In this document: piece after piece, positions 3,274-43,985 of the stretch | Layout of the letters: the number at the start of each line of letters is the position of its first letter | Position numbering within the stretch: position 1 is the stretch's first letter | DNA from: Nitrosococcus halophilus Nc 4 | GTDB lineage: Bacteria; Pseudomonadota; Gammaproteobacteria; Nitrosococcales; Nitrosococcaceae | Direction of reading: 5' to 3' | DNA length: 64,000 bases | Assembly (NCBI RefSeq): GCF_000024725.1 | Contig: NC_013960.1 | Span: forward strand, 2,342,001 to 2,406,000 | Notes under the pieces: model-generated | The model's database searches: none | What the model saw: the letters and a program-made list of their open reading frames with translations, nothing else | What the model was told of the DNA's origin: nothing | Program-made: the position numbers and the translations under genes

Positions 3274-3652
3274 TATGGTGCGATCAAACTTAACGGTGAG
3301 TTTTGAATGAAAAAATGGCAGCCCCCCTAGAGGCTGCCATAGGCTAATAGGAGTTTCATCGTGACTAATTTCCATCAGTCCGACAAATTCGCGTTTCTCA
3401 GCGGCCCTCAGGCAGCAGCCCTCGGGGTCTTTACCGCTCCACGCGCTTTGACTTCGGGTCCCCTCGACCCTAGGCTCCGTGAGCGAGAAAATCATAGCGC
3501 CAATTCGGCGCTGAAACAACAGTTAACCGGCCCTCTCCCTCGGCGCGCCGTTTCACTTCGCGACCTGGCTAGAGGGCCGTTTACCATCCAGGGAGAACGT
3601 CAAGGAGTAAGAAAGGAGGGGTGCCCCCTGCTTCCGATGGGGTTAACTCGTC
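3274..3652 (-). other. non-coding stretch between sodB and argD, possible leader or small RNA
   Basis: About 380 bases without a convincing gene. On the minus strand it ends with an intrinsic terminator (3310-3340) only about 40 bases before the argD ATG. Several GC-rich self-complementary blocks are visible upstream. The arrangement fits either an argD leader with premature termination or an independent minus-strand small RNA. I compared it by eye with 6S RNA, SRP RNA, tmRNA and common riboswitch cores and recognised none of them. Confidence 0.4.
3310..3340 (-). terminator. intrinsic terminator upstream of argD
   Basis: Perfect 9-bp stem ATGGCAGCC / GGCTGCCAT (3315-3323 and 3332-3340) with an 8-base loop, followed on the minus strand by a run of six T. 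This is a textbook rho-independent terminator. It stands about 410 bases after the sodB stop start-to-end of the gap is non-coding, and just before argD, so it could stop sodB read-through or attenuate argD. Confidence 0.75.
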
Positions 3653-4234
3653 TTAGCTCGCCAAGTTTTTGGCGACAAAATCCCAGTTTGCCAGATTCCA
3701 GAAGGCTTCCAGGTATTTGGGCCGGGCATTACGGTAATCAATATAGTAAGCATGTTCCCAGACATCGCAGGTCAGTAAGGGAGTTTTGCCCTCTGTCAGA
3801 GGGTTACCGGCGTTACTGGTGCCGACGATATCCAAGGAGCCATCGGGATTTTTGACCAACCAGGCCCAACCGGAACCAAATAGGGTTATGGCTGACTGAC
3901 TGAATTTCTCTTTAAAATCGGCGAAAGAGCCAAAATTTTCCCGGATAGCGTCCATCAGGGCACCATTAGGTTCCTCCCCTCCCTGGGGCGCTAGGCAGTT
4001 CCAATAAAAGGTGTGGTTCCATATTTGAGCGCCATTATTGAAGATTGCACCAGAGGCTTTGGTAATAATTTCCTCTAAAGATGCATTTTCAAACTCGGTT
4101 CCAGGCACAAGCCCATTGAGTTTGTCCACGTAGGTTTGGTGGTGCTTGCCATAATGGTATTCGAGGGTTTCCTGGGAAATATGGGGTTCCAGGGCGTTCA
4201 TAGCGTAAGGGAGTTCTGGTAAGCGATGACTCAT
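3653..4234 (-). CDS. sodB: iron superoxide dismutase
   Basis: A 193-residue cytosolic superoxide dismutase. The metal ligands are H27 (in EYHYGKHH), H74 (IWNHTFYW), D157 and H161 ([12 protein letters not shown]). The context [10 protein letters not shown] is characteristic of the Fe form rather than the Mn form. The start was set at the ATG at 4234 ([20 protein letters not shown]) because the family starts there and an AGGAGA-like site lies a few bases upstream; a TTG two codons earlier is also in frame. Monocistronic, on the minus strand. Confidence 0.95.
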
Positions 4235-4405
4235 GCCCAATCTCCTTTGTCGTGTCGTTGGTTAGGTGTGGTATAAAATGGAATGACTGACTAAAAATAT
4301 CAAGAATAGTCTAAGGGGCTCTTAGTCGTGATTGCAAGGGCAGTAGTTAGCGCGATTCGGGCCCTAGTCACCTTGCTTTAGCAAGGAACCTTTGCGTGAC
4401 AAGTG

Positions 4406-4430
4406 AAGTCTAGTCAAGTCTAGTCAAGTT
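4406..4430. repeat. short tandem repeat before grxD
   Basis: Two exact tandem copies of the 10-mer AAGTCTAGTC (4406-4425) followed by a partial third copy, about 35 bases upstream of the grxD start. It may be part of a promoter or operator, but no known regulator motif was recognised. Confidence 0.5.
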
Positions 4431-4464
4431 TGTTTAAGTATATGACATCTCGGAGGTATATGCT

Positions 4465-4794
4465 GTGGATGTAATGGAACAGATTAAAGAAGCCGTGGAA
4501 TCTAATCGGATCATTTTGTTTATGAAGGGCTCGCCTGAATTACCCCAGTGCGGTTTTTCTAGCCGGGTAGCCCAAGCACTACAGGCTTGTGGCGCGGAAT
4601 TTGCTTACGTGGATGTGCTTGCTAACCCAGAAGTCCGTGCCAATCTACCCCGGTACGCCAATTGGCCCACTTTCCCTCAACTGTATATTAATGGTGAATT
4701 GGTAGGGGGATGTGATATTACCTTAGAGCTGTTTGAAAGCGGGGAACTGCAAAAAATGGTGCAGGAAGCTGCTCCTCATCCCTCGGAAGGGTAG
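4465..4794 (+). CDS. grxD: monothiol glutaredoxin
   Basis: A 109-residue CGFS-type glutaredoxin. The active site CGFS is at residues 29-32, preceded by the MKGSP segment with the conserved lysine (K21) and followed by WPTFPQLYINGELVGGCDI, which binds glutathione. Proteins of this class bind a bridging [2Fe-2S] cluster together with glutathione or BolA and deliver clusters, rather than acting as strong disulfide reductases. A bolA gene occurs elsewhere in this window (44015-44296). The start is a GTG; an ATG three codons later is possible. Confidence 0.93.
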   Translation: MDVMEQIKEAVESNRIILFMKGSPELPQCGFSSRVAQALQACGAEFAYVDVLANPEVRANLPRYANWPTFPQLYINGELVGGCDITLELFESGELQKMVQEAAPHPSEG

Positions 4795-4967
4795 TTTTTA
4801 CAGCCCGGCGGGTAGCGCGCGGCGCGCTTAGGTAAGCGCTTTGCGCGTTTTCCGCCCTTGAACCGGCATCATGGCCTCCTTACTATAGCGACAAGAAATT
4901 CTATAATTGTTAGGGTACCGGTTTTCTCTTTATCGAAAGAGATGGTCAAGAGGAATCGGGTTGGTTT

Positions 4968-5430: not shown

Positions 5431-7692
5431 ATGTTGAGCAGGGACCTGGAAACAAGCCTAAACCAGGCCTTTAAAGATGCGCGGGAGAAAATGCATGAGT
5501 TTCTCACCGTGGAGCACCTCTTACTTGCCATGCTGGACAACCCGGCAGCGGCGACTGTGTTACGTGCCTGTGGCGCGAATCTGGAGCAATTGAAGGAAGA
5601 AATAACTGTTTTTCTCAATGAAACTACGCCGTTATTGTCGACCAAAGATGGTCGAGATACCCAGCCGACCCTCGGATTTCAGCGGGTATTGCAGCGGGCG
5701 GTGCTTCAGGTTCAGTCCTCGGGGCAGAAAGAGGTCACCGGCGCTAATGTTCTGGTTGCGATTTATGGCGAGCAGCAGTCTCAAGCGGTCTACTTCCTGA
5801 AACGCCAGCATGTGACTCGCCTGGATGTGGTCAATTACATCTCCCATGGGATTAGCAAGGTTGATCCCCAGGGCAGTAGCGGAGAATCGGCTGGGGCCTC
5901 GGAAGAAGCGGAGGCCACCGGTGTTGAAACCCCTGGGCAGAGCCCCCTGGAAACCTATGCCACCAATCTTAACCGGTTGGCGGCACAGGGAAGAATCGAC
6001 CCCCTGATTGGTCGCCGTATTGAATTGGAGAGAACGATTCAGATTTTGTGCCGGCGGCGTAAGAACAACCCCTTGTTTGTCGGCGAGGCGGGGGTAGGTA
6101 AAACTGCCTTGGCCGAAGGGCTGGCGCGGAAAATTGTTGAAGGGGATATCCCCGATGTGTTGCAAGATTGCACCATTTACAGCTTGGATATGGGCGCCTT
6201 GCTGGCCGGCACCAAGTACCGGGGCGACTTTGAAAAGCGTTTAAAGGGCATCTTGGCCCAGCTTAAAAAGGAAAAAGGCGCTATCCTTTTTATCGACGAG
6301 ATCCATACGGTGATTGGCGCGGGTTCGGCTTCTGGTGGAGTGATGGATGCTTCCAATCTCATCAAGCCCGTGCTGGCCTCCGGTGAGCTTAAGTGTATTG
6401 GTTCCACCACCTATCAGGAATACCGGGGTATTTTTGAGAAGGATCGGGCCTTGGCGCGCCGATTTCAGAAAATCGATATCCCTGAGCCCTCGGTAGAGGA
6501 AACAGTGCAGATCTTGCGGGGGTTGAAATCCCGCTTGGAAGAGCATCATAAGGTTCGATTCTCCCAGGCCGCGCTCCGGACGGCGGCTGAGCTTTCAGCC
6601 CGTTATATTAACGATCGCCATCTCCCGGATAAGGCCATTGATGTGCTTGATGAATGTGGCGCCAGCCAACAGCTGTTAGCGCCCTCCAGGCGCAAAAAGG
6701 TCATTGGGGTACAGGATGTGCAAACGGTGGTCGCTAAGATGGCCCGTATTCCACCTAAGCACGTCTCGACTTCCGATAAGGAAAGCCTGGCTAAGTTGGA
6801 AGCCAATCTTAAGCAGGTGATTTTTGGGCAGGATGAAGCCATTGAGGTGCTGAGTTCGGCCATCAAAATGTCTCGTTCCGGCTTAGGGGATACCGGCCGG
6901 CCGGTGGGCTCGTTCCTTTTCGCGGGTCCTACCGGTGTCGGCAAGACGGAAGTGACTCGTCAATTGGCGTATGTCCTGGGTATTGAACTCATCCGTTTTG
7001 ATATGTCCGAGTACATGGAGCGCCACACGGTCTCTCGCCTAATTGGGGCTCCGCCGGGCTATGTGGGTTACGATCAAGGCGGCTTGCTTACCGAAGCTGT
7101 CTGCAAAACTCCCCATGCGGTTTTGTTACTGGACGAGATTGAAAAGGCTCACCCTGATGTGTTCAATTTGCTCTTGCAAGTGATGGACCATGGTACGCTG
7201 ACGGATAATAACGGGCGCAAGGCGGATTTTCGCAATGTTATCCTGGTCATGACCTCCAATGCGGGGGCCCAAGAGATCAGTCGAACCTCTATAGGTTTTA
7301 CCCCACAAGACCATTCTACTGATGCCATGGAAGTCATTCGGCGGACATTTAGTCCCGAGTTTCGCAACCGACTGGATGCGGTTATCCAATTCAGCGCCCT
7401 GGATGGACCTTCCATTGGTCGAGTCGTCGACAAGTTTGTGCTGGAGTTGGAGCTCCTCCTGCAGGATAAAAATGTAACTCTAGAGGTGAGCGAGATGGCT
7501 CGGGCTTGGTTGGCTGAGCATGGCTATGATGAAAAAATGGGTGCGCGACCCATGGCTCGCCTCATACAGGAGAAGATTAAAAGGCCTTTGGCGGATGAGC
7601 TGCTATTTGGCAAGCTGGCCAACGGGGGGCACGTGGTGGTCGATATGGCCGAAGGCGAACTTCAACTGACTTGTCAAAGTAGCCGCGATTGA
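5431..7692 (+). CDS. clpA: ATP-dependent Clp protease ATP-binding subunit ClpA
   Basis: A 753-residue AAA+ unfoldase of the ClpAP protease. It has an N-terminal double Clp-N repeat (to about residue 145), an acidic linker, a first AAA module with Walker [10 protein letters not shown] (about 219-227) and Walker B FIDEIHT, and a second with [10 protein letters not shown] (about 498-507) and [12 protein letters not shown]. There is no long middle coiled coil, which separates it from ClpB (47624-50221 here). The frame opens at a TTG at 5425, but the ATG at 5431 gives the conserved start [14 protein letters not shown]. Confidence 0.95.
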
Positions 7693-26636: not shown

Positions 26637-28145
26637 GTGTTAAGCCAGCGGCATCCCGATACCCTGGCCGCCATAGACCTGGGGTCCAATAGCTTTCATA
26701 TGATCATTGCCCGCGTAGTGAGAGAAGGTCAGCTACAGGTACTAGACCGCTTGCGGGAGATGGTTCAACTGGCCTCCGGCTTAGATAATGACAAACATTT
26801 GAGCGAGGCGGCCCAGGAGCGGGCTCTGAGTTGTTTAGCTCGCTTTGGGCAACGTTTACGGAACCTCCCTCCTTGGGCAATTCGGGCCGTGGGCACGAAT
26901 ACCCTACGGCAGGCGCGGAATGCCGATGAATTTTTGAAGCGCGCCAGTACCGCCTTGGGCCATCCCATTGAAATTATCGCGGGGGATGAGGAGGCTCGGT
27001 TGATTTATTTAGGGGTTTCCCACGCCTTGGATTTTGATGACGCCCGGCGGTTGGTGGTGGATATTGGCGGAGGAAGCACGGAATTCATTATCGGTGAGGG
27101 TGCTGAGGAGGGGCGTTATCGGGAAAGCATTGAAATGGGTTGCGTCTATTATAGCCGCCGTTTTTTCCCCAAGGGAATCTTAAATGAAGCTTCCATGCAA
27201 CAAGCTGAGATTGGGGCCCGGACGATGTTGCAAGACATTGAGCAGCAATTTCGCCATTTAGGGTGGGAGGAAGCCATAGGGGCCTCGGGAACTATCCGGG
27301 CCGTAGCCCGAGTTGTGGCGGCCCAAGGGTGGTGCGGCAGTGGAACGATTACGGCGGCCTCCCTAAAGGCCCTTGCCCATCTTATGGCGGAGACGGGTCA
27401 TGTTAAACAGCTAAAGCTGGAGGGGCTAAGCCCGGAGCGAGGACCCGTATTTCCCGGTGGCGTGGCGATACTTAAAGGCATTTTTGAGAGTCTGGGTATT
27501 GATCGCATGACAGTATCGGATGGCGCCCTGCGGGAGGGGTTGCTGTATGATCTCATTGGCCGGATTCGCCATGAGGATGTGCGTAGCCGCACTGTTGCTG
27601 ATTTAGCCCAGCGCTATCATGTGGATCAGTCCCATGCCTCTCGGGTTAAAGAGACTGCCCTGGCGTTGTTGGAAGGGGTGGCTTCCACCTGGGAGCTTGA
27701 AGAAGAAGAGCATTTTTTGTCTTTGCAGTGGGCGGCGATACTCCATGAGGTGGGGCTGGCCCTTTCCCATGGCCAATACCATAAGCATGGTGCCTATCTC
27801 TTGGCCTATAGTGACTTGCCTGGTTTTTCCCAACAGGAGCAACAGGTCTTGGCGTTTCTGGTGCGGGGGCATCGCCGCAAGTTGCCAGCCGCCAAATTAA
27901 AGCGGCTTCCCGAAGATCTTCGCCAGCCTACGCTGCGTCTTTGCCTATTGTTGCGGTTGGCGGTGTTGCTTAATCGTAATCGTTCCTCCACTGCGTTGCC
28001 TCATTTGATATTCAAGGTGGATCAGAACACTTTAAAGCTTAAATTTCCTGAAGGGTGGTTGGTTCAACATCCGCTGACTGAGGCCGATCTGGTTCAGGAA
28101 GCCAGCTATGTGAAGGCAGCGGGTTATCGACTGAAAGCCAAGTAG
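26637..28145 (+). CDS. ppx: exopolyphosphatase Ppx
   Basis: A 502-residue member of the Ppx/GppA family with the actin-like ATPase fold: phosphate loop AAIDLGSNSFHMIIARV near the start, the second loop VVDIGGGSTEFIIGE and ASGTIRAVARV. The C-terminal half is an HD-like helical domain (LQWAAILHEVGLALSHGQYHKHG). It cleaves terminal phosphate from polyphosphate (and perhaps pppGpp). GTG start. Its location after the pst operon and across the array from ppk links uptake with polyphosphate turnover. Confidence 0.92.
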   Translation: MLSQRHPDTLAAIDLGSNSFHMIIARVVREGQLQVLDRLREMVQLASGLDNDKHLSEAAQERALSCLARFGQRLRNLPPWAIRAVGTNTLRQARNADEFLKRASTALGHPIEIIAGDEEARLIYLGVSHALDFDDARRLVVDIGGGSTEFIIGEGAEEGRYRESIEMGCVYYSRRFFPKGILNEASMQQAEIGARTMLQDIEQQFRHLGWEEAIGASGTIRAVARVVAAQGWCGSGTITAASLKALAHLMAETGHVKQLKLEGLSPERGPVFPGGVAILKGIFESLGIDRMTVSDGALREGLLYDLIGRIRHEDVRSRTVADLAQRYHVDQSHASRVKETALALLEGVASTWELEEEEHFLSLQWAAILHEVGLALSHGQYHKHGAYLLAYSDLPGFSQQEQQVLAFLVRGHRRKLPAAKLKRLPEDLRQPTLRLCLLLRLAVLLNRNRSSTALPHLIFKVDQNTLKLKFPEGWLVQHPLTEADLVQEASYVKAAGYRLKAK

Positions 28146-31456: not shown

Positions 31457-31543
31457 AGCTAACAAGCCGCTCAAGTTCGTTCCGGCCCTTCGGGCCTCCA
31501 CCGGACGCGGCTAAAGCCGCGCCGCTTAGCTCAGACGTTATGT
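31457..31543 (+). other. attC site 1
   Basis: 87 bases from AGCTAAC to GTTATGT. The inner part is self-complementary (CCGGCCC / GGGCC and GCGGC / GCCGC blocks) and the end GCCGCTTAGCTCAGACGTTA is the standard right half of an attC. Confidence 0.8.
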
Positions 31544-31574: not shown

Positions 31575-33932
31575 GTGGGTCGAAATAGTAAGTCCAGACG
31601 AGATGCTAAGAAAAGGAAAGCAAAGAAAATCCGCAACCGTCTTAAATCTAACAAGCGCACTGCTGGTAAACAATCTTTCTCTGGACCAGTGATGACAATG
31701 ATGGAAAACCCACTGTCTGGCCTCACTGGTGAACAAAGGAAAGAGTTGATTGTAGAACTAGGAAAGAACGGGAAAGATAAAGTTGCTGAGATATTCGAAT
31801 CGTTGAACGATATTTTGAGGCAGTATGACCCTACCACCTTAATAAGTATTCTCTCAGCCTATGGTTTGACTGTTGGAGCAGGTGATGGTGGAGTCCAATC
31901 AAAAGAATCATCTGGAGGCCTAAATCAGGCACATGTGGAGCTAGTTCAGGCGCTGGCTCTACAAATACCAGAGAACGAACTCGGCGCGCTCCCTGTCACT
32001 CCTGATATAGTTCAGAAGGTATGGGATCGATTAATAGAAATAGGTCACGCCTTTAAATTTAGTAGGATGAATGTAGAGCTATTGGAGTCATCCAATATTG
32101 AAATGGCTATCAATCAGGTCCAAGAGTTTCTACGAAGTCATACACAAATGGTTAGGAATTGGGGTTTTCATTCTCAAGTGGTTGGTATTTCGAAGGAATT
32201 ATATAGTCACTTTGATGGGGAAATCTATAATAAGTTTGGCTTTTCAGCCACAAATGCCATTGATGTTTTTAAGGTTTTGACTGAATCTGTAGAGGAAAAG
32301 CTTTCTAAGAGATTTAATATATTGTCCGATCTAAAGTCCACAAAAGCGCCGTACGACATGCTAGTTAAATATCATGAATTGATTGGGCAAGGGAAAAATG
32401 AGGCTGATAGGTTTTCCGAGAACATTGATATAAAAAAGATGTCGCGAAAGAATCTTTTTGCCATGATTTTATCGCATTTCGATCTGAGAATGCCTGACTA
32501 CTACTTTATCAATAGTCATGAATTGTCGGAGCGGCTAAAAATTGATGAAAGTATTATCGATAATGTTCTAAGTCACTTTTCATACAGATTCGGCGATCTC
32601 AGGGACGAAAAGAAAGAATTTCTCTTTTTGGAAAACCCTGTGTGGAAGAAGCCAGTAATCTCATCCTATAGTGGATACTATTGCGTATTGCCCCAGCTAT
32701 TCTTTAGCTTCGTTCTAGACACGCTAAATGAGATTGTGGAGGGAGTAGATAAGAAGTCTCTTCACGACCGGCGAGCTGATTATCTGGAGTCAAAGATTAA
32801 AGAGGTTGTTAAGACAAGGTTTCCTGAGTCACAAGTAGTTTCTGGGGTTAAATGGAATCAGGGTGAAGCTCAGTATGAAACCGACCTTATTGCATTTATT
32901 GATTCTCATGCAATTATTATTGAGGCGAAATCACAAAGAATATCGAGGCCTGCTTTAAGAGGCGCGCCAGACCGAATAAAGAGGCACCTTGAGGAAGTCC
33001 TGATAGAGCCAGGAATTCAGTCGAATCGATTAGAAAAGAAGCTTAACGATCTTAGGGTTCAGGATGAACCAGACGATTCTCTTTTGAAAGAGATCCCTGT
33101 AGATATAAGATCTATAAATAAAGCGCTTCGGGTTTCAGTATCTCTAGAAGATTTTGCTACTCTTCAGACAAACTTGAGGCTGTTTAATGAAACCGGTTGG
33201 ATTCCGGATGATTTCGCGCCTTGCCCATCAATGAACCTTGCCGATTTCGAAACATTGTTTGATTTTCTCGAACACCCTGTTCAAATCATCCACTATCTTC
33301 TAAGAAGAACTGAGCTTGAAGGAAATTACAAGTTCATGGGGGATGAGCTCGATTTTATGGGGCTATACATTACTAACTTGCTGAATATTGGGAATATGGT
33401 AAGTGATGATGAAGCAGAAGTCATAATATCAGGGATGTCTGAGCCATTAGACAAGTATTATATGTCAAAAGACCAAGGTATATTAATTGATAAGCCTCAA
33501 CCCAAAATATCGCCTTTTTTCAAGAAGATATTTAGTAAACTCGAGGAGCGATCTACTGCGCGTTGGACAGAGATCGGGTGTATACTCAATCGCTTCCCCC
33601 CAGATGATCAGAGAAAGCTAGTTCAGCATATCAAAGACTTATCCAAGGTGGTGCATAGAACATGGCAATCCGACGACCATAATAATATTGTTATATATAA
33701 GCCGCCAGAATCATCAGAGTATGCTTTGGTTGTAGTCCTATTTAAAGACGAGAATCGAGACAAACGCTATGAGTTTATTGATCATGCATCTGCTTTGGGT
33801 CTGGAGCCGAATCATGTTAAGTATTGCTTGATTATTGCAATAAATATAGATAATGACGACTTGCCGTATCATTATATAGCACTTGCAGAGAATCGAGATA
33901 GCGAATCATCACATAACAAGCGCGTCAATTAG
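31575..33932 (+). CDS. large cassette protein with PD-(D/E)XK-like nuclease motif
   Basis: A 785-residue protein, large for an integron cassette. The N-terminus is lysine/arginine-rich (GRNSKSRRDAKKRKAKKIRN), then a long helical region follows. At about residues 436-455 the segment YETDLIAFIDSHAIIIEAKS gives the D...ExK pattern of restriction-endonuclease-fold nucleases, preceded by a conserved-looking GVKWNQGEAQ. The C-terminal 300 residues have no recognised domain. GTG start with AGGGA upstream; the stop lies inside the next attC, as is usual for cassettes. Low GC compared with the host genes. A role in defence or DNA processing is inference; the remainder of the protein is unknown. Confidence 0.7.
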   Translation: MGRNSKSRRDAKKRKAKKIRNRLKSNKRTAGKQSFSGPVMTMMENPLSGLTGEQRKELIVELGKNGKDKVAEIFESLNDILRQYDPTTLISILSAYGLTVGAGDGGVQSKESSGGLNQAHVELVQALALQIPENELGALPVTPDIVQKVWDRLIEIGHAFKFSRMNVELLESSNIEMAINQVQEFLRSHTQMVRNWGFHSQVVGISKELYSHFDGEIYNKFGFSATNAIDVFKVLTESVEEKLSKRFNILSDLKSTKAPYDMLVKYHELIGQGKNEADRFSENIDIKKMSRKNLFAMILSHFDLRMPDYYFINSHELSERLKIDESIIDNVLSHFSYRFGDLRDEKKEFLFLENPVWKKPVISSYSGYYCVLPQLFFSFVLDTLNEIVEGVDKKSLHDRRADYLESKIKEVVKTRFPESQVVSGVKWNQGEAQYETDLIAFIDSHAIIIEAKSQRISRPALRGAPDRIKRHLEEVLIEPGIQSNRLEKKLNDLRVQDEPDDSLLKEIPVDIRSINKALRVSVSLEDFATLQTNLRLFNETGWIPDDFAPCPSMNLADFETLFDFLEHPVQIIHYLLRRTELEGNYKFMGDELDFMGLYITNLLNIGNMVSDDEAEVIISGMSEPLDKYYMSKDQGILIDKPQPKISPFFKKIFSKLEERSTARWTEIGCILNRFPPDDQRKLVQHIKDLSKVVHRTWQSDDHNNIVIYKPPESSEYALVVVLFKDENRDKRYEFIDHASALGLEPNHVKYCLIIAINIDNDDLPYHYIALAENRDSESSHNKRVN

Positions 33933-33988: not shown

Positions 33989-34306
33989 ATGCACTACTTT
34001 ATCGGAAAATGGCGTATTACCTGGATGGAGACTTGGCCGCAGGAATATGTAGATTTAGAGGAGCCGGGCTACTTTGAATTCACCGAGGACAAAGGCGAAT
34101 TCGTATTTGGCGCTATGCGAGGCTGGCTTGATGTGCGAGTATCAACTCGGGTACCGATGTTGGAATTTACATGGCAGGGTGTCTGGGAGAGAGATGAGTA
34201 CTGCGGCCGGGGTATCTTCGAGTTCCCAGATCCCGATCATGGAGAGGGCATGTTCTTCATCCACTCCGGGGACGAATCGGCGGTGAAGATTGAGCGCAAA
34301 ACATAA
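33989..34306 (+). CDS. small acidic cassette protein, unknown function
   Basis: A 105-residue protein, rich in aromatic and acidic residues: YFIGKWRITWMETWPQEYVD, then FEFTEDKGEFVFGAMRG, and FFIHSGDESAV near the end. I recall similar small proteins as common hypothetical genes in bacteria, often in cassettes, but cannot name a function. It fills a complete cassette of about 400 bases between attC 2 and attC 3, with its stop inside attC 3. The predicted structure is a small beta-rich fold (inference). Confidence 0.75.
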   Translation: MHYFIGKWRITWMETWPQEYVDLEEPGYFEFTEDKGEFVFGAMRGWLDVRVSTRVPMLEFTWQGVWERDEYCGRGIFEFPDPDHGEGMFFIHSGDESAVKIERKT

Positions 34307-34377
34307 CAAATCAATCAACTTCGCGCCTTCGGCGCCGGACGCGTAAAAAGCGCACGCCGGTTATTGAGGCGTTATGC
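34301..34377 (+). other. attC site 3
   Basis: 77 bases from ACATAAC to GTTATGC. Central arms GCGCC TTC GGCGC, then the right half CGGTTATTGAGGCGTTATGC pairs with ATAACAAATCAATCAACTTCG. Confidence 0.85.
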
Positions 34378-34395: not shown

Positions 34396-35013
34396 GTGAA
34401 TAGAGAGCTGACATTTGGTAATCACGACACCATTAGCATTCCACCGGGAGCCACCATTTTTTGCGACCTAGATGGAACCTTGGTCGATACCGATTATGCC
34501 AACTATTTGGCTTACAGGCTCGCCGTTTTTGAAGTAACGCAGGGACAGATTGAGCTCAGTTTTGATGAGAAAAGGGCAAACAGGGAGAGCCTGACTAAGC
34601 GCTTACCGACGCTAACTGACACGCAGCTGAAAGAAATAGTCTCGCTCAAGACCGGCTATTTCACACAATTTCTCTCGGTTACACAATTAAATACCATGTT
34701 GGCACGTCTGGTTTCTGAGCACTCTCTCGAGAACACAATAGTATTGTTGACATGCTGTCGAGAAAAAAGAGCCACGGAAATACTTAAATACTACGGATTG
34801 CTCGAGCACTTCAAACGATTGATTTGTTGGGAGGTTTTGTCTAGCAACGACTCGCCTAACAAGTATGAGACTGCTATACGCATCATGGCCGTGCACCAAG
34901 AATCCATTGTTGTCTTTGACAATGATCCTTTCGGTGTTGAAGCTGCCATCAATGCGGGGATTCCCGGACCCAACATCTACAAAATCATTTCTGAGCAGGC
35001 AAACCCCTTATGA
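34396..35013 (+). CDS. HAD-superfamily hydrolase (first gene of a three-gene cassette)
   Basis: A 205-residue haloacid-dehalogenase-fold phosphatase: motif I FCDLDGTLVDTD (nucleophile and acid aspartates, about residues 22-33), motif II VLLTCC, a lysine in NKYETA for motif III and motif IV VVFDNDPFG. A helical cap follows motif I. HAD enzymes mostly remove phosphate from small molecules; the substrate is unknown. GTG start. Its last codons overlap the start of the phosphoribosyltransferase gene (ATGA), so the three genes 34396-36607 are probably translated together. Confidence 0.85.
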   Translation: MNRELTFGNHDTISIPPGATIFCDLDGTLVDTDYANYLAYRLAVFEVTQGQIELSFDEKRANRESLTKRLPTLTDTQLKEIVSLKTGYFTQFLSVTQLNTMLARLVSEHSLENTIVLLTCCREKRATEILKYYGLLEHFKRLICWEVLSSNDSPNKYETAIRIMAVHQESIVVFDNDPFGVEAAINAGIPGPNIYKIISEQANPL

Positions 35014-35633
35014 TCGAGTTTCAGATTAATGCAAACGATCATTTGTCTCAAGATGCATTGGCATTCTATCACGTCCGGTACACAGGAATGGGGAAACCGG
35101 CGAATCCAGACTATCTTAATCATCTAAAGAATACATATAACAGCTTTGCCGATAGGAAGTTGAGGGTTGCAGTACAAGAATTGACCAGCGTCCTTCAGGA
35201 GGACCTGCCGAAGATACATGCAAGGATTGAGTTTACCGAATTGCATGTGTGTGTTGTTCCGAGGGCAAAGGCAGAAAAGGCATATCATAAAAAGCAGCAA
35301 CTCTTTCGAAGTACCGTAAGATCCGTTGTCCGTCGTATTCCCGGCCTCATTGATGGAACGAATTACCTGCGTCGGCATACGAACACCAAAACCACGCACC
35401 TTCGGCAACCAATTCCAAATTATAATAATGACGGTCCGGAGCCTTATCCTGGGATTCTAGAAGACACTTGTGATATCTCACCCGAGGTTAGAGATAACCA
35501 TATTCTACTGATCGACGACATTTATACGCCTGGGGTCAATATAGACGAGGATGCTATTGGTACGCTAATGAGAAGCGGAGTATCTACAGTTACGTTCTAT
35601 GCAGTTGGAAAAGTGGAAAGAGGAGCTTGGTAA
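35010..35633 (+). CDS. phosphoribosyltransferase-fold protein (second gene of the cassette)
   Basis: A 207-residue protein whose C-terminal third carries the PRPP-binding signature ILLIDDIYTPGVNID (about residues 169-183), the hallmark of type-I PRTases, closest in style to ComF-like proteins. The N-terminal half is helical with VCVVPRAKAEKAYHKKQQLF, which could form part of the active site. The start overlaps the HAD stop and the stop overlaps the next ATG by one base (TAATG). ComF/PRTase plus DprA-like pairs occur in competence and in RqlH/RqlI-type modules (established knowledge); the substrate here is unknown. Confidence 0.8.
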   Translation: MIEFQINANDHLSQDALAFYHVRYTGMGKPANPDYLNHLKNTYNSFADRKLRVAVQELTSVLQEDLPKIHARIEFTELHVCVVPRAKAEKAYHKKQQLFRSTVRSVVRRIPGLIDGTNYLRRHTNTKTTHLRQPIPNYNNDGPEPYPGILEDTCDISPEVRDNHILLIDDIYTPGVNIDEDAIGTLMRSGVSTVTFYAVGKVERGAW

Positions 35634-36607
35634 TGAATTTCACAGAAAATGCCTTGAATGTAATGACGGCAAGGACTTACAAAGGCATTGGTAGAGCATG
35701 GATTGCCAAGAACCTATCTACTGTTAAGTCTGACGTCGAGATCGTCAGCCTGTTGAGTAGCTCCGGTAAGGTGAAAAGTGCAATATCAATAGAAGAATTC
35801 AGGAGAAAGAGGTCTGTATTGCAAAAAATTCTGCTCGACTCCGCTGGATCGGTAGATGGCGTTATTGCACTGGGAGACAAAGATTTTCCGCAACATCGAG
35901 GTATCGTTAAGAATAGTGAAAAGCCAATTTTCCTTTTCTATCGTGGCGATTTATCACTGCTAACTGAAAATAGTAAAAATATTGCTGTCATCGGATTACT
36001 GACTCCTGATGAAGATATTGAGTCCGAAGAAAAGGAAGTTGTCGCTGAGCTGGTTCGGAGTGGCGCAGTAATAGTTAGTGGCTTGGCATTCGGTTGCGAT
36101 TCTATTGCGCACAGGCAGGCACTGGATTGTGATGGCCTCACTATCGCAATACTGCCTAGTCCTCTAAATGATGTAATTCCAGCTAGGAATCGCGCATTGG
36201 CAGGGGAGATTGTGGAAAAGGGAGGGCTTTTGATTTCTGAATATTTAACCGTTGCTAAGTCGAAGATGGAAATGAGTGCGCGATATCAAGAAAGGGATCG
36301 GCTTCAAGCGCTTTTTAGTAACTCAATTATCCTATCTGCCAGCTACGCCAAGAATAATTTGGGGAATGATAGCGGATCAAGGTTAGCAATGGGGTATGCG
36401 AAAGATTATTCAATCCCAAGGGTGGTGATTTATGATATGGAAAAATATGTAGAAAATCCGATGTTTGATTTGAATCGACAAATCATGCGTGAAGAACCCG
36501 ATGTAATTGTCATCAATAGTCAGAACAAGGCATTAGTCGTGGATAGAATAATGCGCCTGAGGCCGCCGAGGGCGGATGCACCGTCTATTCAGCCGAGAAT
36601 GATTTAG
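35633..36607 (+). CDS. DprA/Smf-like Rossmann-fold protein (third gene of the cassette)
   Basis: A protein of about 324 residues with the DprA core: GDKDFPQH, IFLFYRGDL, NIAVIGLL, VSGLAFGCDSIAHRQAL, TIAILPSPLNDVIPARNRAL and GGLLISEY in the right order. In DprA these residues form the extended Rossmann fold that binds single-stranded DNA and RecA; other members bind nucleotides. Unlike housekeeping DprA it lacks an N-terminal SAM or C-terminal winged helix that I can see, and the RNR motif is changed to YQERDRL. The ATG at 35633 with GAGGAG eight bases upstream is preferred over a TTG at 35627. It closes the operon before attC 4. Confidence 0.85.
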   Translation: MNFTENALNVMTARTYKGIGRAWIAKNLSTVKSDVEIVSLLSSSGKVKSAISIEEFRRKRSVLQKILLDSAGSVDGVIALGDKDFPQHRGIVKNSEKPIFLFYRGDLSLLTENSKNIAVIGLLTPDEDIESEEKEVVAELVRSGAVIVSGLAFGCDSIAHRQALDCDGLTIAILPSPLNDVIPARNRALAGEIVEKGGLLISEYLTVAKSKMEMSARYQERDRLQALFSNSIILSASYAKNNLGNDSGSRLAMGYAKDYSIPRVVIYDMEKYVENPMFDLNRQIMREEPDVIVINSQNKALVVDRIMRLRPPRADAPSIQPRMI

Positions 36608-36623
36608 CCCTAGGGGCATATGG

Positions 36624-36699
36624 GCATAACAAAAGCGCCAACGCGGATCGCCTTTTCCGCTAGCGCTCCAAAGCCGGCCGGTTACGCTAAACGTTAGGG
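36624..36699 (+). other. attC site 4
   Basis: 76 bases from GCATAAC to GTTAGGG. AAAGCGCCAACGCGGAT and GTTACGCTAAACGTTAGG give the paired arms. Confidence 0.75.
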
Positions 36700-36721: not shown

Positions 36722-36922
36722 ATGGCGACAGTCCAAAAGATCGAAAAAGAAGTTTCGAATCTTTCCCGTGAAGAGCTTGCTGAATTCCGTGCTTGGTTTG
36801 AGGACTTTGATGCAGCGATTTGGGATAAACAGTTTGAAGAAGATGTGAGATCTGGAAAATTAGATAAACTTGCAGAAGAAGCAATAAAAGATTTCAAAAA
36901 AGGCAAGTTCAAAGAAATATGA
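36722..36922 (+). CDS. antitoxin of a ParE/RelE-type pair
   Basis: A 66-residue, highly charged helical protein (VQKIEKEVSNLSREELAEFR, then WFEDFDAAIWDKQFEEDVRSG and DKLAEEAIKDFKKGKFKEI). This is a common antitoxin partner for short RelE/ParE toxins. The stop overlaps the start of the toxin by four bases (ATGA). ATG start with GAGGTG upstream. Second half of the pair is at 36919-37173; the two fill one cassette. Confidence 0.82.
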   Translation: MATVQKIEKEVSNLSREELAEFRAWFEDFDAAIWDKQFEEDVRSGKLDKLAEEAIKDFKKGKFKEI

Positions 36923-37173
36923 AGCATTTCACAAATCCATCATTCTGGGAATGCTATGACAAACTACCAACAGAAATTAAAGAGCTAGCCGATAAGAATT
37001 ATGAGCTTCTCAAAGAAAATCCAAAACATCCCTCCTTGCATTTCAAGAAAGTGGAAAAATTTTGGTCTGTGAGGGTGGGAAATCGGTATCGAGCAGTAGC
37101 TGTCGAGGTAGAGGATGGGTTGTTGTGGTTTTGGATAGGTACTCATGCCGAATATGATAAGTTGTTGCAATGA
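36919..37173 (+). CDS. ParE/RelE-like toxin
   Basis: An 84-residue protein of the RelE/ParE superfamily: FWECYDKLPTEIKELADKNY helical hairpin, then beta strands with LHFKKVEKFWSVRVGNRYRA and VAVEVEDGLLWFWIGTHAEYDKLL, ending in the usual HaxYdkLL motif. Members cleave ribosome-bound mRNA or poison gyrase; which applies here cannot be told. Toxin-antitoxin cassettes are thought to stabilise integron arrays against loss. Confidence 0.85.
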   Translation: MKHFTNPSFWECYDKLPTEIKELADKNYELLKENPKHPSLHFKKVEKFWSVRVGNRYRAVAVEVEDGLLWFWIGTHAEYDKLLQ

Positions 37174-39311: not shown

Positions 39312-39369
39312 TTCTACGGGGCAGAGAATTTACTCAGTGGGCAGGAATATTGACCTCATCGGTTGCGAT

Positions 39370-39915
39370 ATGAATATTACAGAAGAAGCAAAAAATATAC
39401 TTAGAGGCATACCTGTTAAAATTCTAGATATACCAAATCGAGCTAAAAATATTTTAACAGCTGGTGGAGTTGAAAATGTTCTTGGGGCAATCGAAACCAT
39501 TAAAAGTGGATTCGTAGGGATGTCTGGGATTGGTGCGAAAACCATTTCTGAGAGTGTTGAGAAAGTAGATGATTTGCTTGTAAAAATAGAGAATATAGAA
39601 CCAGATCTTATTCTAAATGTCCTTGATCCTAGGGAATCGTATTTTGAGCATGCCAATGGAAATATGCTTCAAGTATTCTCTCCTATAATAGATTTGTATT
39701 TTGAGAAGAAAGGAGGGAATCATGCTGAAAGAAACAAGGATATTCTGTGCAAGAGATTTAATCTTGAAGGCGAAGGTGAATATACACTAGAAGATATAGG
39801 CATTTATTATGATCTCACGCGTGAGCGCGTTCGACAGATTGAGGCCAAAACTATATCTGATCTAGATTTGCTTCTTTCTGGGAAATTAAAAACCAAAAAA
39901 TGGAGACTGGATTAA
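39370..39915 (+). CDS. RNA polymerase alpha-CTD-like plus sigma-70 region 4-like protein
   Basis: About 181 residues from the ATG at 39370 (an upstream GTG at 39337 is possible). The N-terminal half (PVKILDIPNRAKNILTAGGV then GFVGMSGIGAKTISESVEKV) matches the helix-hairpin-helix DNA-binding domain of RNA polymerase alpha (RpoA CTD). The C-terminal part (YTLEDIGIYYDLTRERVRQI, then EAKTISDL) matches sigma-70 region 4, which recognises -35 elements. Having both on one small protein suggests a promoter-binding regulator or RNA-polymerase decoy (inference). After its stop the same frame continues open with LTDRYLCMKDKLREKDYILS, so the gene may once have been longer. Confidence 0.7.
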   Translation: MNITEEAKNILRGIPVKILDIPNRAKNILTAGGVENVLGAIETIKSGFVGMSGIGAKTISESVEKVDDLLVKIENIEPDLILNVLDPRESYFEHANGNMLQVFSPIIDLYFEKKGGNHAERNKDILCKRFNLEGEGEYTLEDIGIYYDLTRERVRQIEAKTISDLDLLLSGKLKTKKWRLD

Positions 39916-41912: not shown

Positions 41913-43985
41913 TTAGTCAGCCCGTTTCTCCAGTAATATCTGTTGGGCCGAGCGGGGTTTTTGGTTGCCGGTGGGTTTGAGGCGTTTGTAACTGCCGTCG
42001 GATTGCAGTATCCAGGCCTGGGTGTTATCTGAAAGATAGAGTAACAGCCCTTCTTTCAATAGCCGCTCGGCTAGACGTGGGTCTTCAACAGGAAAGGCGG
42101 TTTCGACGCGGCGAAACATGTTCCGCTCCATCCAATCGGCGCTAGAGCAGTAGATCTCGCTGTGACCATCATTGAGAAAATAATAAATGCGGCTATGTTC
42201 CAGAAAACGGCCGACAATGGAGCGCACCTGAATGTTGTCTGAGACGTTGGGAATACCGGGCCGCAACCGGCAGATCCCGCGGATGATAAGCTCGATTTTT
42301 ACCCCGGCCTGGGAGGCCCGATAAAGGGCTTGGATGAGTTGGGGCTCGGTGAGGGAATTCATCTTGGCAATGAGGTGGGCAGGCTTGCCATCCTTCGCAT
42401 GTTCTGCTTCCCGATCAATGTAGCCGATAAGCTGCTTATGGAGGGTGAAGGGGGATTGCCAGAGTTTCTTGAGCTTTCGGGCTCGGCCGAGCCCCGTCAG
42501 TTGGGAAAAGATCTTATGGGCATCATCGCCTATGTCCTTATCGCAGGTCAGCAAACCAATATCAGTATAAATTCGGCTGGTCCGGGCATGGTAATTGCCA
42601 GTGCTTAGATGGACATAACGCCGCAAGCGCTTCCCCTCCCGGCGTACGACAACCATCACTTTGGCGTGGCTTTTATAGCCCACCACCCCATACACCACTT
42701 GAGCCCCCGCATCCTGTAGGCGGTTGGCCAAATGAATATTTTCTTCTTCGTCGAAGCGGGCGCGCAACTCCACTACCGCCGTGACTTCCTTGCCTGTTTT
42801 GGCGGCTTCCACCAAGGCATCGGCAATGACGGAATCGGGGCCAGTGCGGTAGAGGGTTTGTTTAATCGCCAGCACCTGCGGATCGGCCGCCGCTTTGCGT
42901 AAGAACTCGACTACGGGGGCAAAAGATTCAAAAGGATGGTGTAGTAATACATCACCCCGCTGAATGATTTCAAAGATATCCGTATTGCGGGTCATGCGCA
43001 GGGGAAGACCGGGAGTGAATGGGGGGTACTTGAGATCAGGACGGTCTACCAGGTCGGGGAGGGGCATTAGGCGGTTCAGGTTGACGGGCCCATTCACTTT
43101 ATAGAGGTCGTCTAAAGTGAGGTTGAACTGTTTGAGAAGAAAGTCGGCCATCTCGTCGGGACAGTTGTCTGCGACTTCTAAACGGACGGCATCGCCATAG
43201 CGGCGGGTCGACAGTTCCCCTTCCAGGGCGTGCAATAGGTCGTCGATCTCCTCCTCGTCCACAAATAGATCGCTGTTACGGGTGACCCGGAATTGGTAAC
43301 AACCCGTCGCGGACATGCCGGGGAACAGGTCATCCACATAGGCATGGATAATGGAGGAGAGGAAAATGAACTCATAGGGTCCCTTGGCATAAGCGCGGGG
43401 TACATGGATGAGTCGTGGCAAAGTCCGCGGGGCCATGACCACGGCAATCCCGTTCTCACGGCCAAAGGCATCTTTTCCTTCTAGGGAAACGATAAAATTT
43501 AGACTCTTATTGATAATACGCGGAAAGGGGTGGGCAGGGTCCAAGCCCAGCGGGCTGAGCATGGGTAGCAGCTCGCTATTAAAGTAGCGCTTTACCCATT
43601 GGGCCTGTTTGGGAGTCCATTCTTGGCGCCGGAGAAAGCGGATATTTTCCTTTTCAAGTTGGGGAAACAAGGTTTCCTGTAGGATCCGGTATTGTTCTTC
43701 CACCATGCCGTGGGCATATTCACTGACCCGCTTTAAGGTTTCATGGGGAGTTAAGCCATCCGGACCTGCCTGTACCGAGCCTAGGGCAATCTGCTCCTTA
43801 AGACCGGATACCCGGATTTCGAAGAATTCATCTAGATTGGTGCTGGAGATGCACAGAAAGCGCAATCTTTCCAATAAGGGAATGCTCTCGTCCGTCGCCT
43901 GGGCGAGTACCCGGCTGTGAAATTGCAGCAGGCTAAGCTCGCGATTGATATAAAGATCAGGGTGCTTTAGGTCGGGGGCATCCAT
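41913..43985 (-). CDS. ppk: polyphosphate kinase
   Basis: A 690-residue Ppk1: N-terminal helical domain starting with YINRELSLLQFHSRVLAQA, head domain, then the phosphotransferase half with VVELRARFDEEENIHLANRL and HLSTGNYHARTSRIYTD, which contains the autophosphorylated histidine, and the C-terminal second PLD-like motif. It reversibly makes polyphosphate from ATP. It converges from the other side of the cassette array with ppx, so the array separates the two polyphosphate genes. Confidence 0.95.
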   Translation of the reverse strand: MDAPDLKHPDLYINRELSLLQFHSRVLAQATDESIPLLERLRFLCISSTNLDEFFEIRVSGLKEQIALGSVQAGPDGLTPHETLKRVSEYAHGMVEEQYRILQETLFPQLEKENIRFLRRQEWTPKQAQWVKRYFNSELLPMLSPLGLDPAHPFPRIINKSLNFIVSLEGKDAFGRENGIAVVMAPRTLPRLIHVPRAYAKGPYEFIFLSSIIHAYVDDLFPGMSATGCYQFRVTRNSDLFVDEEEIDDLLHALEGELSTRRYGDAVRLEVADNCPDEMADFLLKQFNLTLDDLYKVNGPVNLNRLMPLPDLVDRPDLKYPPFTPGLPLRMTRNTDIFEIIQRGDVLLHHPFESFAPVVEFLRKAAADPQVLAIKQTLYRTGPDSVIADALVEAAKTGKEVTAVVELRARFDEEENIHLANRLQDAGAQVVYGVVGYKSHAKVMVVVRREGKRLRRYVHLSTGNYHARTSRIYTDIGLLTCDKDIGDDAHKIFSQLTGLGRARKLKKLWQSPFTLHKQLIGYIDREAEHAKDGKPAHLIAKMNSLTEPQLIQALYRASQAGVKIELIIRGICRLRPGIPNVSDNIQVRSIVGRFLEHSRIYYFLNDGHSEIYCSSADWMERNMFRRVETAFPVEDPRLAERLLKEGLLLYLSDNTQAWILQSDGSYKRLKPTGNQKPRSAQQILLEKRAD

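Follow-up and report, generated by a model that had tools for sequence, protein, structure and literature searches.

Three overlapping genes of Nitrosococcus halophilus Nc 4 encode a HAD phosphatase-like protein, a phosphoribosyltransferase (PRTase) and a DprA-like protein, and raise the question of whether this trio is a conserved module and, if so, whether it belongs to a described kind of system. We analyzed it within a stretch of 64,000 nucleotides (the window; positions 2,342,001 to 2,406,000 of contig NC_013960.1), with the following features, numbered from the first letter of the window:

34301..34377, + strand: attC-like site, upstream cassette boundary (ACATAAC ... GTTATGC; core-box scan and bottom-strand fold)
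34396..35013, + strand: HAD-IA phosphatase-like protein, 205 aa, GTG start (Pfam HAD_2, PDB profiles, AF2/Foldseek, catalytic columns)
35010..35633, + strand: ComF/ShosT-like PRTase, probable toxin, 207 aa, ILLIDDIYTPGVNIDED motif (PADLOC ShosT, AF2 model compared with ComFC/ShosT)
35633..36607, + strand: DprA-like (SLOG) protein, probable antitoxin/sensor, 324 aa, RDRLQALF motif (Pfam, PDB profile, tree, motif)
36623..36699, + strand: attC-like site, downstream cassette boundary (GGCATAAC ... GTTAGGG; sequence and recurrence in congeners)

All three open reading frames were found where an earlier reading of the sequence alone (the sequence-only reading) had placed them, with the stop of the HAD gene overlapping the PRTase start in an ATGA (35010) and a TAATG junction between the PRTase and DprA genes. 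We preferred ATG 35633 to TTG 35627 as the DprA start because homologues open with M[KN][YF]T. The identities proposed in that reading were also borne out, by Pfam for the first and third genes and by PADLOC together with the AF2 fold for the second. Inspection of Pfam matches and open reading frames showed no helicase in the cassette, and the 207-aa PRTase protein has no helicase domain.

The three genes together form a single integron cassette bounded by attC-like sites. The array carries attC-like sites at 31458, 34301, 36623, 37648, 38233, 39253 and 40920, and since folding was significant for only some of these, the recurrence of the sites elsewhere is the stronger evidence for a cassette. 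One congener has a similar copy of the upstream site without the trio genes, another genome of the same order has the first 42 bases of that site, and near-identical copies of the downstream site (90% and 89%), again without the trio genes, were found in two congeners; the fold of this downstream site is by itself not significant (z 0.03). When the DNA of the whole cassette was used as a query, only the boundary sites matched in two congeners and one further genome of the order (77–90% identity), and the trio genes themselves had no match in these three genomes. There is no integron integrase adjoining the array (C2:2377000), the two in the genome being located >1 Mb away at C2:136734 and C2:1272442. 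Attempts to find attC-like sites at the borders of the trio in six relatives (L004, L005, L006, L007, L013 and L016) were negative, so the status of integron cassette is established for the window copy only.

Several other features of the array were also recorded. The neighbouring cassette (window 31575–33932) encodes a 785-aa protein with a weak match to the antiphage protein GapS1 (NCBIfam NF047931, E 5e-4, far under the cut-off) and no PADLOC match. In the cassette that follows the trio (36722–37173) there are two small paired genes, probably a toxin–antitoxin pair, the second of which encodes a ParE-like protein (4.5e-7). Further downstream, a 192-aa cassette protein (39337–39915) contains a sigma-70 region 4 domain (4.8e-10), which is unusual for a cassette. 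The array is flanked by genes for a Ppx/GppA phosphatase (26637–28145) and a polyphosphate kinase (41913–43985), two polyphosphate genes that its insertion may have separated.

The order HAD–PRTase–DprA is kept in 15 further loci beyond the window, retrieved by DprA- or PRTase-led searches and belonging to five phyla (Pseudomonadota, Nitrospinota, Bacteroidota, Cloacimonadota and Cyanobacteriota); the trio is therefore a conserved module rather than an oddity of one lineage, and the restriction to a single lineage that would have counted against the sequence-only reading does not hold. Identity to the window proteins among these relatives was 25–49% for the HAD, 43–67% for the PRTase and 50–68% for the DprA. 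A DprA-led scan of genome contigs returned 12 loci with HAD and PRTase genes directly upstream in 12/12, including one where the HAD gene is cut by the contig end (L007) and one where the PRTase gene is broken by a frameshift or an error (L012); a HAD query against genome contigs gave no match. The PRTase retrieved the same trio by tblastn on the Synechocystis plasmid pSYLB, and an independent PRTase-led search of 395 Bacteroidota genomes added two more trios, both complete (G420 and G423). A PRTase-led search of 397 other Pseudomonadota genomes yielded no trio beyond that of the window. The hosts include Nitrospinota, Alcaligenaceae, Aliidiomarina, Bacteroidales, Flavobacterium, Tannerella, Cloacimonadota and a cyanobacterium, several of the loci being contigs of metagenome-assembled genomes (MAGs). 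The trio is rare (2/394 other Bacteroidota genomes and 0/397 other Pseudomonadota genomes) and sporadic, and is found on mobile elements.

The genomic context of the relatives agrees with the proposal of a defence setting. While the window copy lies in an integron, relatives were found on a plasmid (pSYLB), in or near CRISPR genes and beside AbiD, each of these defence neighbours being a single example. Inside a type III CRISPR locus of an Alcaligenaceae MAG (L091, 3606–8640), the trio and a second, diverged PRTase copy (6748–7371) stand between Csx1/Card1 and a group made up of a CARF protein, Cas10 and Csm3. In an Alteromonadales MAG the trio is near Cas1 and Cas2, and in Synechocystis it is preceded by an AbiD gene. 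Because viral contigs gave no relative in the DprA alignment and one (L085) in the PRTase alignment, the trio is not mainly phage-borne; PRTase relatives were not found in phage records either. The viral contig L085 encodes a HAD and a PRTase followed by an unrelated integrase-like open reading frame at the place where DprA would be, and its HAD (3399–4835) has a 300-aa N-terminal extension that opens in a CxxC-type zinc-finger-like stretch.

The first protein of the trio matched Pfam HAD_2 (1e-6, better than the Pfam cut-off) and the PDB profile of a phosphatase of phosphorylated carbohydrates (3kbb, 4e-15), and the Foldseek matches of its AF2 model (pLDDT 89.4) were HAD-IA proteins. Among solved structures it is closest to phosphatases of the sugar-phosphate and beta-phosphoglucomutase types, which by analogy would fit a phosphoribosyl or nucleotide product as the substrate. 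The window protein keeps D24, D26, T28, T119 and K156, with a motif IV of D-N-D. Across the 13 rows of the trio HAD alignment, D24, D26, T28 and K156 are present in 13/13 and T119 in 12/13, with Ser in the remaining row. Motif IV is acidic (E-N-E or D-N-D), with Asn in 12/13 rows at the position of D170 in beta-phosphoglucomutase (beta-PGM), a Mg-binding Asp there. Judging from these residues, the Asn may weaken catalysis.

The second protein had no Pfam match and a weak match to PADLOC ShosT (5.1e-5, 21 bits). A profile search against PDB sequences gave chance matches only, and its identity was settled by a fold search. The AF2 model (pLDDT 83.6) was closest in VIA-align to ComFC of Helicobacter pylori (7p0h, Z 12.9) and second closest to ShosT with PRPP-Mg (8zvc, Z 11.1 over 171 residues, covering ShosT 168–366), with HPRTs behind at about Z 8; hhalign likewise aligned the PRTase with ShosT (E 5.9e-5, probability 65). 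The PRTase alignment contains 40 invariant columns, among them a DD pair. The loop after this pair departs from that of ShosT (DDIYTxxVNIDED versus DD[FI][CL]T[EQR]G), so PRPP binding may differ from that in ShosT.

The third protein matched Pfam DNA_processg_A (4.5e-34) and PADLOC ShosA (5.5e-45), and its best PDB profile match was ShosA (9vzo, 2.8e-21). The PADLOC ShosA model (PDLC03961) was tried and rejected as a census tool: it also matches housekeeping DprA, at E <= 1e-20 in 374/398 genomes, so ShosTA calls need a ShosT partner. Phylogenetic analysis grouped the window protein with HAD-linked rows only, in a 16-row clade with a support of 100/100; HAD linkage requires at least two changes on the tree, although long branches leave the wider placement unsure. 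A motif, R[ND]R[IL]Q[AS], is common to the trio DprA, long ShosA, RqlI-type proteins and several plasmid DprA, whereas housekeeping DprA has I or V in place of its Q in 28/28. The short ShosA of Escherichia coli is without this motif. The Nc 4 genome also encodes a housekeeping-type DprA of its own.

As the PRTase match starts at residue 168 of ShosT, we examined the ShosT N-terminus. The solved ShosT is a protein of 432 aa from a P2-like phage (P2_4C9 type; PDB 8zvb, 8zvc, 8zvd, 9w2p and 9w2q, with ShosA as 9vzo); a 415-aa homologue aligns with it end to end (E 7e-85), and the P2-phage ShosT is identical to the solved chain in the part compared. The N-terminal parts matched Pfam HAD_2 and Hydrolase in 7/7 (best 2.8e-8), their HAD-like nature resting on the Pfam matches of individual members, and their motif I reads VIFS or VIFG, with Ser or Gly in place of the nucleophile Asp in 7/7. 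Based on these matches, ShosTA already has a HAD-like, a PRTase and a DprA-like part, distributed over two genes. The sequence-only reading knew of no system with such a composition, but the solved ShosT (8zvb) joins a HAD-like domain to a PRTase and has the DprA-like ShosA as its partner. A listing in PADLOC, which would have counted against that reading, holds in half: the system type is listed, and genes 2 and 3 match its models (ShosT 5e-5, ShosA 5.5e-45), but the PADLOC models searched do not cover a three-gene form whose HAD stands apart, and the HAD itself had no match among them. The trio HAD and the HAD-like domain of ShosT likely go back to a common ancestor through gene splitting or fusion; an hhalign comparison of the trio HAD with the ShosT N-termini was not significant (E 0.099), and independent recruitment is possible.

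The same families occur together in other arrangements. In Sinorhizobium meliloti pHRB800 the order is PRTase–DprA–HAD, with a separate HAD downstream; Psychrobacter pA3H5 carries a HAD–PRTase–zinc ribbon fusion together with DprA; and Deinococcus pDrdI has a HAD–DprA fusion whose neighbours are a coiled-coil protein and a helicase, and beside which no PRTase was recognised in the part read. PRTase–DprA pairs with no recognised HAD also occur. Five layouts of the HAD were seen: a PRTase fusion that has lost motif I, a PRTase fusion that retains it, a DprA fusion, and a gene of its own standing either first or last. This recurrence suggests that HAD function is integral to many PRTase–DprA defence modules. 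Two Rhizobiaceae plasmids (L114 and L118, 1020–4812) have two DprA genes side by side, one belonging to a long-form ShosTA and the other facing that system and overlapped by a hypothetical gene.

Taking gene content and order, cassette boundaries, folds, catalytic residues, the defence neighbours of some relatives and the HAD-like domain of ShosT, all observed directly, with the ShosTA literature, we consider that the cassette is probably a three-gene ShosTA-like toxin–antitoxin or abortive-infection module, in which by analogy the PRTase would be the toxin, the DprA-like protein the antitoxin/sensor and the HAD a phosphatase. The toxicity of the PRTase, the effect on the nucleotide pool, the binding of DNA by ShosA and the defence against phages come from that literature: the P2-phage DprA–PRTase system (ShosTA) blocks T7 and lambda (PMC9122126), and a passage in PMC12593503, citing Pu et al. 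2025, describes ShosT as both a PRTase and a pyrophosphatase, with a disturbing effect on purine metabolism, and ShosA as a DNA-binding protein. In the related RqlH, toxicity depends on residues of the PRPP pocket and is relieved by RqlI (PMC4670107). Being homologous, the trio should act like ShosTA and RqlHI, with a HAD activity added. We infer the carry-over of the ShosTA roles to the trio, as well as the substrate of the HAD and the direction of its effect. The PRTase would act on PRPP or a nucleotide and, once released, upset the nucleotide pool, while the DprA-like protein would bind DNA, restrain the PRTase and sense when phages disturb DNA metabolism. The HAD would correspond, as a protein in its own right, to the HAD-like N-terminal domain of ShosT and might remove a phosphate from what the PRTase makes or from a phosphoribosyl compound, which would either complete the toxic effect or limit it. 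Points against a ShosTA-like reading are the weak ShosT match, the non-discriminating ShosA model, the non-significant HAD alignment, the different gene order and the unusual PRPP loop.

A more tentative idea, possible but rather improbable in our view, is that the separate HAD is a working enzyme which converts what the PRTase makes into a nucleoside-like molecule, diffusible and either toxic or signalling. The trio would then represent a three-component, small-molecule-producing branch of the PRTase–DprA defence modules, and ShosT a fused form derived from it in which the HAD was later inactivated. It is unlikely that the genes form a nucleotide-signalling or nucleoside biosynthesis pathway free of any toxin–antitoxin pairing, in which the PRTase would join PRPP and a base into an unusual nucleotide, the HAD would strip its phosphate and the DprA/SLOG protein would sense or use the product. 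A PRTase and a HAD are plausible as a two-step pathway, PRTases of the Ter system have been proposed as nucleotide makers (PMC5512222), the HAD residues D24, D26, T28 and K156 are kept in all 13 aligned rows, and the departure of the PRPP loop from that of ShosT leaves room for a new reaction; however, PRTase–DprA pairs without a HAD are common and are toxin–antitoxin or defence pairs where tested (PMC9122126, PMC4670107), and the motif IV Asn, in place of the Mg-binding Asp in all but one row, may weaken catalysis. The resemblance of the PRTase model to H. pylori ComFC and the homology of the third protein to DprA recall natural transformation, where a ComF-like PRTase and DprA would handle incoming single-stranded DNA in competence or repair, but the genome has its separate housekeeping-type DprA, and the sporadic occurrence of the trio on an integron, on a plasmid and beside CRISPR genes, together with its absence from congeners, is unlike that of core competence genes, which makes this explanation very unlikely. 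Least probable of all is that the integron happened to capture an ordinary metabolic or housekeeping operon that plays no part in conflict, since the HAD-IA and PRTase folds, though common in metabolism, are found here in a rare, sporadic and mobile distribution that keeps a fixed order across five phyla, with the same three parts recurrently fused and with defence-island neighbours.

Returning to the ShosTA-like module, the trio enlarges the pool of integron cassettes by a candidate defence system of three genes and offers an annotation route for a HAD that PADLOC models do not cover. The HAD-like domain in the solved ShosT has lost its nucleophile; the HAD of the trio keeps motifs I–III intact in a gene of its own, and its role is therefore open to gene removal and active-site mutation.

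Compared with known systems, the trio shares with long-form ShosTA a HAD-like domain, a ComF/HPRT-type PRTase and a DprA-like partner encoded side by side, as well as the RxRxQA motif of the long-form ShosA. Long-form ShosTA, however, consists of two genes with DprA first and the HAD-like domain fused N-terminally to the PRTase, its nucleophile lost, whereas the trio has three genes with the HAD first and separate and its DxDGT kept, and the PRPP loop and DprA clade of the two are distant. Short-form ShosTA of E. coli (ShosT of about 208–216 aa; PDLC03962/PDLC03961) resembles the trio in having a PRTase of similar length and a DprA-like partner, but has no Pfam HAD domain and no adjoining HAD gene, and its DprA lies upstream of the PRTase. 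The plasmid modules of pHRB800, pA3H5 and pDrdI draw on the same families with HAD motif I intact, and differ in their order or fusions, in short HADs with a motif IV of the GDxxxD kind and in a DprA outside the trio clade. RqlH/RqlI and PsyrTA likewise pair a PRTase with a DprA-like partner, the RqlI-type motif RDRIQA being of the same kind as that of the trio, but their PRTase is fused to a RecQ-like helicase; the kinship with RqlH/RqlI suggested in the sequence-only reading is thus one of kind, the closest relative being ShosTA. The trio is a variant of the ShosTA kind and not a new kind of system.
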